Part shown: positions 60,935 to 64,000 of the stretch, piece after piece | How positions within the stretch are numbered: the stretch's first letter is position 1 | Layout: each line of letters opens with the position of its first letter | Source of the DNA: Candidatus Eremiobacterota bacterium | GTDB lineage: Bacteria > Vulcanimicrobiota > CADAWZ01 > Ess09-12 | Assembly: GCA_031082125.1 (NCBI GenBank) | Contig: JAVHLM010000022.1 | Location: 62,001 to 126,000 of the forward strand | Reading direction: 5' to 3' | DNA length: 64,000 bases | The notes under the pieces: generated by a model | Seen by the model: only the letters and a program-made list of their open reading frames with translations | Databases searched by the model: none | Told to the model about the DNA's origin: nothing | Program-made: the position numbers and the translations under genes

Positions 60935-62341
60935 TCACAAGAGAGCCAGAAAATAGGCTGCAGGGGCCAGAAGCACATTTTCATGCGATGCAAAGGTATT
61001 TCTTGTGAGCATAATGCCTCCTCCATGCTTTTTCAGCATTTTGGCGTTCTCCGGATTCACTCTTGCCTGGTATTTCACCTCCAGAAGCGCGGCATTCTTC
61101 TGGCCCTCGAAAATGGCGAAGTCAATCTCTTTTTCCTCCCTGAAAAAGAAGATATTCTCCCCGCATTTTCTTCTGAGATGGGAAGCGACAAGGCTTTCCA
61201 CCATATACCCGTAATATGAAGAGTCCTTAAAGAATTCTTCACAGGCAGCGCAGGGATCGGGGTATCCCAGAGCCCATGCCCTCAGACTATGGAAAATGAA
61301 GGGATCCCTGAAATAGACCTTTTTAGGGGAGCGGGGGGTCCGGAAAGGCTTTCCACCTCCGCCGATCCGGTAAAAGATATCTATTATGAAGCAAGACTCA
61401 GCATCTTCCAGGTACTCTCTCACCGTCGGATGAGTTCCCGCATAGGTTTCCCTCGCTATATCTGTCCATTCAAAGGGATTCTCTCTTCTCACAAGGAGCC
61501 ATTGCATAATCTCGCGGAAAATGCTTTCTTTTCTCCCTATTCTCTGCATATCGCCAAGAAAAGCATCGCGGTAGATTTTGTAAATATCAGGACGCAGGTG
61601 AGTGAAGGCATGAAATTGATTGATTGATCGGGGGAATCCCCCTGTCTTGAGATAAGAGTCAAGCAGTGGAGCAATAAGCTCACTGCTCAGAGAGACTTCC
61701 TCAAGAGAGGCTTTCAGTATCTTTTTATTCCAGCCCTGAAACGGCGGCAGGGCAGACTTGAGATCTTCCCTCACTGCAAGCAGATATTCTCTGAACGTCA
61801 GGGGGAATAGAGGGATATCCAGGCCTGAGCCTCTTCTCCCTGGCAGCCTTTCTGCGCCTCTTCTCATTCCCATCATGTGGGAGCCTGTGGCAAAGAGGGT
61901 AACTCCCCTGAGCTTTCCCTCTTCTGCAAGAATCTTTATCCCTTTCTCCCAATCCCTTATGGAGGTTGCCTCATCAAGAAAAATATGCACTCTCTCATCG
62001 CTGTCCGCTCTGATCCAGGAGATATACGCTCTTATGATGTCCGCAAGCCTCTGAGAAGTGGAGGGAGCAGCCTCTTCGCAGTTGAAATAGAGGACCCTTC
62101 GGGGAGCAATGCCCCTGCTTTCAATGAGCGCTCTCATCATCAGTCTGAAGGATGTGGTCTTCCCGACCTGCCTCGGCCCGAAGACCACATGGACGGCATC
62201 CTCTTCGGTATTTACAGAGCCGATATAAGCCGGATACCATTTCAAAGAGGCTTCTTCAAATTCCCTGATATAGAAGTCGCCAAGGAGCGCTTCTTTTTTC
62301 ACCCACCAGGGATTTTGCCTTCCGAGAATCTCCAGTTCCAT
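60935..62341 (-). CDS. AAA ATPase with DUF4143-like C-terminus
   Basis: 468 residues. Walker A is FGPRQVGKTTSF at about 54-65, Walker B HIFLDEATSIRDW, and sensor-like LFATGSHMMG follow. The C-terminal half is DUF4143-like with YFRDPFIFHSLRAWALG, and a PD-(D/E)XK-like segment (EKEIDFAIFEGQKNAALLEVKY) that could be a nuclease fold with DF and E-x-K. Such ATPases are common, patchily distributed and often mobile; their role is unsettled. No ribosome site precedes the ATG, which lies one base after a palindrome. Confidence 0.85.
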   Translation of the reverse strand: MELEILGRQNPWWVKKEALLGDFYIREFEEASLKWYPAYIGSVNTEEDAVHVVFGPRQVGKTTSFRLMMRALIESRGIAPRRVLYFNCEEAAPSTSQRLADIIRAYISWIRADSDERVHIFLDEATSIRDWEKGIKILAEEGKLRGVTLFATGSHMMGMRRGAERLPGRRGSGLDIPLFPLTFREYLLAVREDLKSALPPFQGWNKKILKASLEEVSLSSELIAPLLDSYLKTGGFPRSINQFHAFTHLRPDIYKIYRDAFLGDMQRIGRKESIFREIMQWLLVRRENPFEWTDIARETYAGTHPTVREYLEDAESCFIIDIFYRIGGGGKPFRTPRSPKKVYFRDPFIFHSLRAWALGYPDPCAACEEFFKDSSYYGYMVESLVASHLRRKCGENIFFFREEKEIDFAIFEGQKNAALLEVKYQARVNPENAKMLKKHGGGIMLTRNTFASHENVLLAPAAYFLALL

Positions 62342-62342
62342 A

Positions 62343-62363
62343 TTGTGAAAATCTCATTTTCAT
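62343..62363. promoter_or_regulatory. Operator-like palindrome, proximal copy
   Basis: Contains the palindrome GAAAATCTCATTTTC in a 21-base direct repeat. It ends one base upstream of the ATPase ATG, so it also occupies the place of a ribosome site in the mRNA. Confidence 0.7.
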
Positions 62364-62374
62364 AAAATAGTATT

Positions 62375-62395
62375 TTGTGAAAATCTCATTTTCAT
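62375..62395. promoter_or_regulatory. Operator-like palindrome, distal copy
   Basis: Exact 21-base copy of 62343-62363, 32 bp (about three helical turns) away. It touches the -10 box of the ATPase promoter. Confidence 0.75.
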
Positions 62396-62422
62396 TGTAA
62401 CATATCAAGGCGCTGCCGTCAA
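62394..62422 (-). promoter_or_regulatory. Promoter of the AAA/DUF4143 ATPase
   Basis: On the minus strand TTGACG (62417-62422) and TACAAT (62394-62399) are 17 bases apart. Transcription would start near 62387, inside the distal palindrome. Confidence 0.7.
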
Positions 62423-62495: not shown

Positions 62496-63569
62496 ATGAC
62501 CGATCACTCCCACGATCAGCTCTTCCAGGAGGCCCACGCCCTCAAGAAGGAGCGGCGCTACAGGGAGGCCCTGCCCCTCTATGAGGAGCTTCTCAGGGGC
62601 GGCTTCAGGAGCGCCTTCTTTCTCTCGTCGGCGGCCCACCTTTATTTTCTTCTGAAGGAATATGAGAAGGCCCTGGAGCTCGTCGAGAGCTCGCTCCATC
62701 TGAGGCCCGGCGAGCCCTTCACCCTGAGCCTCAAGGGGAAGCTCCTGCTGGCTCTCGGTTACAGGGACGAGGCCCTCACCCTTTACAGGGACCTCTCGAC
62801 AGCCCCCCTGCCTGCGGCGACGGCAAGAGACGTGGTGATGTTTCTCTCCCGCAACGGGGCTCCCGGCGAGGCTTCAGCCTGCCTGGAGAGGCTCATTGCC
62901 CGCGATCCATCCCGGAAGGAGCTCCAGCTCCTGAAAGCCGACATGGATAAGATTCAGCATGGCACAGGCGCACAGAGCGGACCGCCCGTGGCCAATGCTT
63001 CCGACGGCGATCTCTACGCCCGCCAGATCGAGGCCAGGATAAGGGAGCTTCCCCGGGAAGAGGCCCTCGGGGAGCTTGCCACCCTCATGACCATCCCTTC
63101 ACGTCGTGAAAATCTTCGCCTCATGAAGCTTCATGCCAGGATGCTCTATGAGGCGAAGCGCTACAGGGAAGCCTATGAAGCGTACGAGGAGCTCTGGAAA
63201 AAGGAGCCCGGCGACAGGTTCGCCCTGAGCCAGATGGCCTTCGCCCTCGTGCACACAGGCGAGTATGAGCGCTCACGCCCCCTCCTCGAGGAGATCTTCA
63301 CCATGGAGCCTGAAAATGTCTACGTGAAGAATTCCCTCATCAAGGCTTACCGGGTCACCGCCACGGAGGAGCATGGCATCCTTTTTCTCCAGGGCATCAT
63401 CGCACGCCATCCCGCCCTGCGCCATCTCTGGGGAGATATCAGGAAGCTCTCGAAGCCGCGGGAGCCTGAAGGCACGGCGAAGCCGCGCGGTTCCGGAGGC
63501 GCGCGGAAGACGCGGAAATCCGCAGACGGGATCCCTGCGCGAAGAAGAAAGGAAACCGGTAACCTATGA
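62496..63569 (+). CDS. TPR protein upstream of DUF6079-like ATPase
   Basis: 357 residues of TPRs (about 5-150 and 205-330) with no signal peptide, ending in a basic tail rich in Lys/Arg/Gly (GTAKPRGSGGARKTRKSADG). TPRs bind proteins; the basic tail could bind nucleic acid. GGAG precedes the ATG. Its stop codon overlaps the start of the ATPase gene by four bases (ATGA), so the two are translated together and probably act in one complex. Confidence 0.8.
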   Translation: MTDHSHDQLFQEAHALKKERRYREALPLYEELLRGGFRSAFFLSSAAHLYFLLKEYEKALELVESSLHLRPGEPFTLSLKGKLLLALGYRDEALTLYRDLSTAPLPAATARDVVMFLSRNGAPGEASACLERLIARDPSRKELQLLKADMDKIQHGTGAQSGPPVANASDGDLYARQIEARIRELPREEALGELATLMTIPSRRENLRLMKLHARMLYEAKRYREAYEAYEELWKKEPGDRFALSQMAFALVHTGEYERSRPLLEEIFTMEPENVYVKNSLIKAYRVTATEEHGILFLQGIIARHPALRHLWGDIRKLSKPREPEGTAKPRGSGGARKTRKSADGIPARRRKETGNL

Positions 63570-64000
63570 GCACGGCGGAACAGAAAGAAAAAACAGGCGC
63601 CACGGTAGGCGATCTCATAGAGGTCCCGCAGATCAGGACGGTGATCCAGCTCCTTGACGCCCGGAGTGAAAACCGCGACACCGCCCGGGAGATCGCCGAA
63701 ACCTTTGTGATCACCGAAGAGATCGAGGGATATCTCAGGGAGTTCCTGGAGGCCATGGCACGCCCCTCCGGCGCGGGCGCCTTCCTGAAAGGCCACTATG
63801 GCTCAGGAAAGAGCCATTTCCTCTCATACCTCTCCATGGTGATTGAGGGAGACACCGGGGGGATCACCCTCACGGAGCCCCTCCGTGAAGCCTTGGAAAA
63901 ACTGGGAGGGAAGCGCTGCTTCACCGTGCTCATTCCCCTCTTCCTCTTCAATGCGGGGGAGAGCCTCGAAGAGATCGTGCTGATCACCTGCCAGAAAGCG
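63566..64000 (+). CDS. DUF6079/BrxC-like P-loop ATPase, 3' end outside window
   Basis: 145 residues visible. VGDLIEVPQIRTVIQLLDAR and FVITEEIEGYLREFLEAM lead to the Walker A FLKGHYGSGKSHFLSYLS. This opening matches my recollection of DUF6079-family and BrxC/PglY-type ATPases, large proteins (about 1200 residues) of BREX and related phage-defence systems. The start overlaps the TPR gene by four bases. Identity of the system cannot be decided without the sequence to the right. Confidence 0.75.
   Translation, partial: MSTAEQKEKTGATVGDLIEVPQIRTVIQLLDARSENRDTAREIAETFVITEEIEGYLREFLEAMARPSGAGAFLKGHYGSGKSHFLSYLSMVIEGDTGGITLTEPLREALEKLGGKRCFTVLIPLFLFNAGESLEEIVLITCQKA

Follow-up and report, generated by a model that had tools for sequence, protein, structure and literature searches.

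Twin palindromes at a DUF4143 ATPase gene and helix-phased, largely gene-specific putative operators across its family

Introduction

Two identical palindromes stand between a promoter-like sequence and the start codon of an ATPase gene in Candidatus Eremiobacterota bacterium (GenBank assembly GCA_031082125.1), which raises the question of what reads them and whether they control the gene. The gene lies in a 64,000-nucleotide stretch of contig JAVHLM010000022.1, hereafter the window, and its product has AAA_14 and DUF4143 domains. An earlier note, made from the DNA letters, had suggested that the palindromes were either paired repressor operators on one DNA face or RNA hairpins that block translation. 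The protein matches models of PDC-S01, a single-gene candidate system in which ATPase domains are fused to PD-(D/E)-X-K members. The study describing it ranks PDC-S01 fourth in frequency among prokaryotic defences, with 29,494 systems detected in bacteria and 9,986 in archaea, and its available text calls the antiviral role unvalidated (PMC12988326).

Results

Two exact copies between promoter-like sequence and start codon

The twin palindromes were confirmed as exact 21-bp copies (62343–62363 and 62375–62395) with a start-to-start distance of 32 bp, placed between the promoter-like sequence and the start codon of the ATPase gene. The repeat extends to 24 nt at 96% identity (62340–62363 versus 62372–62395), and each copy holds a 17-bp palindrome, TGAAAAT-CTC-ATTTTCA, with 7-bp arms and a 3-bp centre. 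The locus has the following features:

60935..62341, minus strand: AAA_14/DUF4143 ATPase gene, 468 aa, from the open reading frame and Pfam; PDC-S01 candidate by PADLOC
62346..62362, no strand: proximal dyad TGAAAATCTCATTTTCA, putative operator, 4 bp 5' of the ATPase ATG
62378..62394, no strand: distal dyad, putative operator, the same 17 bp, 32 bp from the proximal dyad
62394..62399, minus strand: -10-like box TACAAT with TG before it, consensus match only, its last base within the distal dyad
62417..62422, minus strand: -35-like box TTGACG, consensus match only
62367..62372, minus strand: alternative -10-like box TACTAT between the dyads, weak by consensus, with ATGAAA 17 bp upstream (62390–62395)

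The promoter-like sequence TTGACG-N17-TACAAT (minus strand, 62422 to 62394) had a consensus score of 10/12. With this better-scoring promoter, the distal dyad shares one base with the -10-like box and spans the expected transcription start, and the proximal copy lies at the ATG. If the alternative TACTAT served as the -10 box, the window would match the layout of site, -10 box and site found in several relatives (see below). A gene for a TPR protein (62496–63569, plus strand) diverges from the ATPase gene, and because the two have their upstream region in common, the dyads could act on the TPR gene too. After the TPR gene comes the first part of a DUF6079 gene (63566–64000, plus strand, Walker A GHYGSGKSH), truncated by the window end.

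The direct repeat stood 11.9 SD above 60 dinucleotide shuffles of its own upstream stretch. When the window was searched with the core GAAAATCTCATTTTC, exact matches were found at 62347–62361 and 62379–62393; with up to three mismatches there were six matches against 2.8 expected, and the exact pair alone stands out. Apart from two sites with three mismatches on other contigs, the 20-bp palindrome pattern occurred nowhere else in the 7,431,043-base genome. Mobile-element ends were considered and rejected, as no further copy of the palindrome was found 3' of the ATPase gene.

The ATPase has a predicted winged helix and a nuclease-like tail

Pfam assigned AAA_14 (PF13173, E 1e-22, 80.9 bits versus a cut-off of 27) and DUF4143 (PF13635, E 3e-14, 53.5 bits versus a cut-off of 28.1) to the window protein. 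Seven PDC-S01 models of PADLOC matched it, the best over residues 46–428 at E 2.1e-34, an assignment made by profile E-values rather than by PADLOC's own thresholds. The protein had no family in NCBIfam or PHROGs, and a sequence search of the PDB gave no match at E 0.1. An AlphaFold2 model (pLDDT 90.7, pTM 0.90) showed an architecture that we read as an AAA core, a helical lid, a winged helix and a mixed sheet with PD-(D/E)XK-like residues, the domain names being our own:

61781..62206, minus strand: AAA ATPase core, residues 46–187, Walker A GPRQVGKTT and Walker B FLDE
61310..61528, minus strand: winged helix-turn-helix, residues 272–344, in the AlphaFold2 model, domain call read from secondary structure
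61073..61153, minus strand: PD-(D/E)XK-like core, residues 397–423, from an alignment of 21 sequences and the model strands

The winged helix is modelled as helices 272–285, 292–298 and 304–316 and strands 320–325 and 340–344. Across the 21 aligned sequences E405 and D407 were invariant and E421 and K423 nearly so; the domain, a putative nuclease, shows in these residues the conserved D...ExK core of the PD-(D/E)XK superfamily.

The three best Foldseek matches of the model were a DNA-bound Orc1/Cdc6 (the top match, on origin DNA), PABY2304 and SSO1545. Orc1/Cdc6 matched at E 7.6e-8, with TM-scores of 0.27 and 0.33 and an rmsd of 13.3. VIA-align, applied to Foldseek's list, gave Z scores of 15.0–15.6 for PABY2304 (Z 15.4, 271 residues aligned, rmsd 4.0), SSO1545 (Z 15.0, 278 residues aligned, rmsd 4.5) and some plant NLRs. 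The AAA core and winged helix of Orc1/Cdc6, SSO1545 and PABY2304 are also present in the window model, but these matches stop near residue 355 and leave its C-terminal domain outside. SSO1545 and PABY2304 are archaeal AAA+ ATPases of the ATPase_2 family.

Dyads and repeats are enriched upstream of DUF4143 genes

Two sets of DUF4143 genes were compared with controls. The discovery set held 101 intergenic genes (17 from the own genome, 64 from the phylum and 20 from genome_contigs), drawn from 26 genome_contigs loci and from 100 stretches that belong to this genome or its phylum, a part of the places listed. The second set, run through the same pipeline, held 99 genes; 13 genomes contributed to it, two of which supplied 48 of the genes, and it came from 80 stretches and 30 loci, again a part of the places listed. 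Its genomes had also given discovery loci (different genes), and the two sets overlap in protein clusters, with 61 and 64 cluster units in the two sets versus 112 overall (clusters at 45% identity). Genes that lacked Walker A or a usable start, lay near a contig edge or were not intergenic were dropped, which reduced 119 to 101 and 103 to 99. The null was 60 dinucleotide shuffles per gene, with start codons set by rule. Other ORFs of the same stretches, with starts at the first ATG, served as controls; some 3-bp periodicity among them indicates that a few control starts are wrong.

Taking bacteria and archaea together, 100 of the 200 intergenic DUF4143 genes had a strong dyad or direct repeat upstream, far above controls. 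Dyads with z > 3 were present in 26/101 discovery genes versus 8/250 controls (MWU p 1.2e-9) and direct repeats with z > 3 in 28/101 versus 10/264 (p 8e-11). The second set gave 33/99 versus 6/81 for dyads (p 5e-6) and 38/99 versus 3/81 for repeats (p 4.5e-6). Either element passed z > 3 in 46/101 discovery genes and 54/99 second-set genes, compared to 9/81 second-set controls; neither did in 55/101 and 45/99 genes, with the dyad search covering half-sites up to 12 bp apart.

The spacing of the repeats follows the DNA helix

Among discovery repeats with z > 2.5, the spacing was 22–27 bp in 14 genes, 31–34 bp in 15 and other in two, whereas spacings among the 14 control repeats ranged widely, between 14 and 63 bp, with five at 22–27 bp and one at 32 bp. 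In the second set 34 of the 40 repeats with z > 2.5 lay at 31–33 bp, compared to none of five control repeats. None of those 40 fell at 22–27 bp, which together with the five of 14 control repeats in that range makes this class weak. With each protein cluster counted once, 31 of the 42 clear repeats were spaced at 31–34 bp, six at 22–27 bp and five elsewhere. Since 31–34 bp corresponds to three helical turns, the spacing is quantised across DUF4143 clusters.

Pooled autocorrelation over the 112 clusters showed self-similarity peaks at lags of 11, 22 and 32–33 bp, and the helical contrast was 0.027 (95% CI 0.019–0.035) versus 0.006 (0.003–0.009) in 344 controls, the signature expected for sites on one DNA face. 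A helix-phased dyad pair at the promoter was thus found at the window locus (32 bp) and family-wide. The paired operators on one DNA face that the earlier note had suggested are well supported, by the family as a whole more than by this locus, with binding and repression there as predictions.

Paralogues in the same genome have sites of their own

The genome contains 23 PF13635 matches, 17 of them in frames at least 377 aa long. The other six (L011, L022, L023, L025, L026, L027) lie in open frames of 96–289 aa, and such short matches beside long ones suggest gene gain and decay. Many DUF4143 upstream regions in this genome have a dyad or repeat near the promoter and start codon that differs in sequence each time, for example ACTAAAATTGCAATCAATGCAATTTTAGT at L009, AATATAAAATCAATTTTATATT at L012, tandem ACTCAG dyads at L015 and 16-bp arms around a central TTGACT at L020. 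The earlier note had counted a lack of the repeats in other members of this genome against its reading; this palindrome is absent from them, but many have a dyad of their own in the corresponding position.

Between the 17 intergenic upstream regions of this genome, the six best pairwise blocks were four of TTGAC, one TATAAAAT and one ACAATGAAAAT, the last common to the window gene and L117. The L117 paralogue matches the window protein over residues 115–424 (32%), and its upstream region has the half-site ATGAAAAT/ATTTTCAT of the window gene in another arrangement, with arms ATGAAAATA and TATTTTCAT separated by a longer gap, as well as a 33-bp direct repeat. Because of this common half-site, operator privacy is not strict, and cross-talk between the window ATPase and L117 is possible. 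A single operator sequence for all DUF4143 genes was rejected, since the paralogues differ apart from this one half-site.

Relatives keep the geometry and sometimes the half-site

The closest relative found, L060 from WOR-3 (44% identity to the window ATPase), has twin dyads of another sequence, ATGCCAATAGCATTGGCAT and ACGCCGATTGTGTTGGCGT, placed 32 bp apart and upstream of the -35 box. The archaeal L058/L059 have TTGATTTTGTAAAATCAA and TTGATTTTATAAAATCA 34 bp apart, flanking a TATA-like box, and the spacing is 34 bp in L052, L053 and L056 and 32 bp in L055. At the bacterial genes L250, L259, L260 and L263 one copy overlaps the -35 box and the next one spans the transcription start, with the -10 box between them and promoters called by consensus only. 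Given that the position relative to the promoter varies, L060 being upstream of -35, repression is not the sole option. Three tandem units of 33–34 bp occur upstream of the DUF4143 genes of L056 (a Thaumarchaeota contig) and of L260 and L263 (genome G162).

Some relatives resemble each other in sequence as well. L110 of G000 and L195 of G009 (60% identity) have a block in common that comprises the -35 box, the -10 box, the first dyad arm and the centre, the second arm being partly lost in L195, and L115, L184 and L169 have ACTCAG/CTGAGTAA half-sites in common. The pairs L114/L138 and L133/L167, of similar identity, had nothing clear in common upstream. By eye, TGCAAAT-like half-sites were seen on plasmids of Sphingobium, Dinoroseobacter, Thioflavicoccus and Granulicella. 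Eighteen plasmid genes, counted without NGR234 (a record without annotation) and with no control set, gave dyads with z > 3 in seven and repeats with z > 3 in three (spacings 32, 23 and 22 bp). As judged from these upstream regions, related proteins from different genomes can share half-sites, and the operator sequence would then travel with the protein.

On plasmid pTT27 of Thermus thermophilus HB27, TT_RS11170 (L316:14854-16074) is a DUF4143-like ATPase gene with the dyad TGAATGA-CTA-TCATTCA just before its ATG, which has the 7-3-7 plan of the window palindromes; a different dyad, farther upstream, scores best in that region. A Thermus gene with the same domains, TT_P0211, was 6.6-fold up with plasmid DNA in an Argonaute-bearing strain (PMC4406477). 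The two are probably the same gene, an equation made with the locus tags unmatched and serving as a lead.

Repeats in the sister family ATPase_2

Eighteen of 30 ATPase_2 (PF01637) loci from the own phylum were taken (L335–L352), and 17 were examined after L348 was dropped for want of a usable start. Repeats with z > 2.5 were found in seven of the 17, all at 15–16 bp and with no control set, and none of the 17 had one at 31–34 bp. Half-sites at these genes' own promoters include TAGTCTA and ACATTATGTA. The 15–16 bp repeats raise the possibility that operator arrays at the own promoter are a wider habit of such ATPases, with an array geometry that may be set by the ATPase family.

Discussion

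We infer that the twin palindromes probably form a double-stranded DNA operator pair for the gene's own ATPase, with oligomer binding, cooperativity and self-repression as parts of the same reading. The ATPase, which resembles Orc1/Cdc6, SSO1545 and NLR-type ATPases and combines a winged helix with a nuclease-like tail, would bind the pair as an oligomer, one two-fold unit per 17-bp dyad. A distance of 32 bp puts both dyads on the same helix face, three turns apart, so cooperative binding is possible. Bound across the transcription start and the start codon, the ATPase would shut its own promoter and the protein would stay scarce. Across the family the geometry holds, and the putative operator sequence is mostly private to each gene and moves with the protein. 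That DUF4143 genes often have their own, mostly gene-specific, helix-spaced sites suggests autoregulation, each ATPase acting on the gene that encodes it.

Any promoter palindrome may serve a factor acting in trans, and an unlinked repressor or global regulator might bind the dyads instead of the ATPase. A scan for covariation between segment identity and operator similarity, given overall identity, is in keeping with this, as it showed no peak at the winged helix of the ATPase (r -0.18 to 0.08 at residues 291–310). We nevertheless judge such a regulator improbable. The palindrome occurs at this gene only in the genome, the 17 own-genome upstream regions share at best promoter-like blocks and the one half-site of the window gene and L117, and among related proteins the half-sites turn up again in other phyla as well as on plasmids. 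With so many different operator sequences, one regulator reading them all is unlikely. The scan did peak near residues 179–225, with r up to 0.35 among sequence pairs that are non-independent. These residues are the start of the lid after PLTFREY and are a possible DNA-reading element or noise.

The repeats could also be a DNA target or 'self' mark for the nuclease-like domain, or a docking site of a replication or partition kind, with gene control as a by-product. The Orc1/Cdc6-like fold, the conserved PD-(D/E)XK-like motif and the three-copy iterated repeats of L056, L260, L263 and L330 speak for such a role. The own genome argues against it: the three operator patterns that recovered their own gene (the window and two more) found no other close site there, and a pattern derived from L115 was uninformative, being too strict to find its source operator and matching at control level. 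We consider this role less probable still than an unlinked regulator.

Leader RNA hairpins that block ribosome access, the other suggestion of the earlier note, are the least probable: the proximal palindrome does end 4 nt before the ATG and the 81-nt leader folds at z -2.1 with the copies pairing with each other, but a single hairpin reaches just -2.4 kcal/mol, the distal copy directly adjoins the -10 box and would at most be partly transcribed from that promoter, and relatives keep a spacing that follows the DNA helix, some with their copies upstream of -35 or around a -10 or TATA box.

An operator pair read by its own ATPase would have partial counterparts among known systems. Autoregulated toxin–antitoxin operons have palindromic operators at their own promoter, private to each module and often several bound together. 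The window gene likewise has private palindromes, putative operators, at its own promoter, but it is one gene with no partner protein adjacent, and binding would fall to an AAA ATPase. A type II toxin–antitoxin operon was rejected, as the next same-strand gene (DUF134) begins 149 bp downstream of the ATPase gene and the upstream gene is divergent.

IniR has an SSO1545-like ATPase domain in a promoter-binding transcription regulator; it differs in its SdiA-like C-terminal DNA-binding domain and in its target, the iniBAC operon, and the available main text of that paper contains neither 'inverted repeat' nor 'palindrom' (PMC5760070). For PDC-S01, operators at the own promoter are not mentioned in the available text (PMC12988326), and our literature search gave no paper on such operators among the matches listed. 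Palindrome-based autoregulation as such is familiar; a helix-phased, largely gene-private operator code in an ATPase family that spans domains of life is new as far as our searches show.

The earlier note had added that such control suggests a gene that must be tightly held off, which would fit the candidate-defence label of PDC-S01. One could go further, though we think it doubtful, and picture the bound ATPase as an NLR-like sentinel on its own promoter, with the operator pair as both off-switch and sensor platform. The oligomer would be inactive and self-repressed while bound. Disturbance of host DNA, of transcription or of the complex by an invader would then lead to release, derepression and arming of the nuclease-like domain, and the orthogonal operators of the paralogues would allow many independent sentinels per cell.

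DUF4143 ATPases are a very common, uncharacterised family suspected of acting against viruses, and the operator code is a first handle on their possible control. Lying at each gene's own promoter, it predicts, gene by gene, the DNA bound by each protein, and it could become a source of many repressor/operator pairs that are natural and largely orthogonal.
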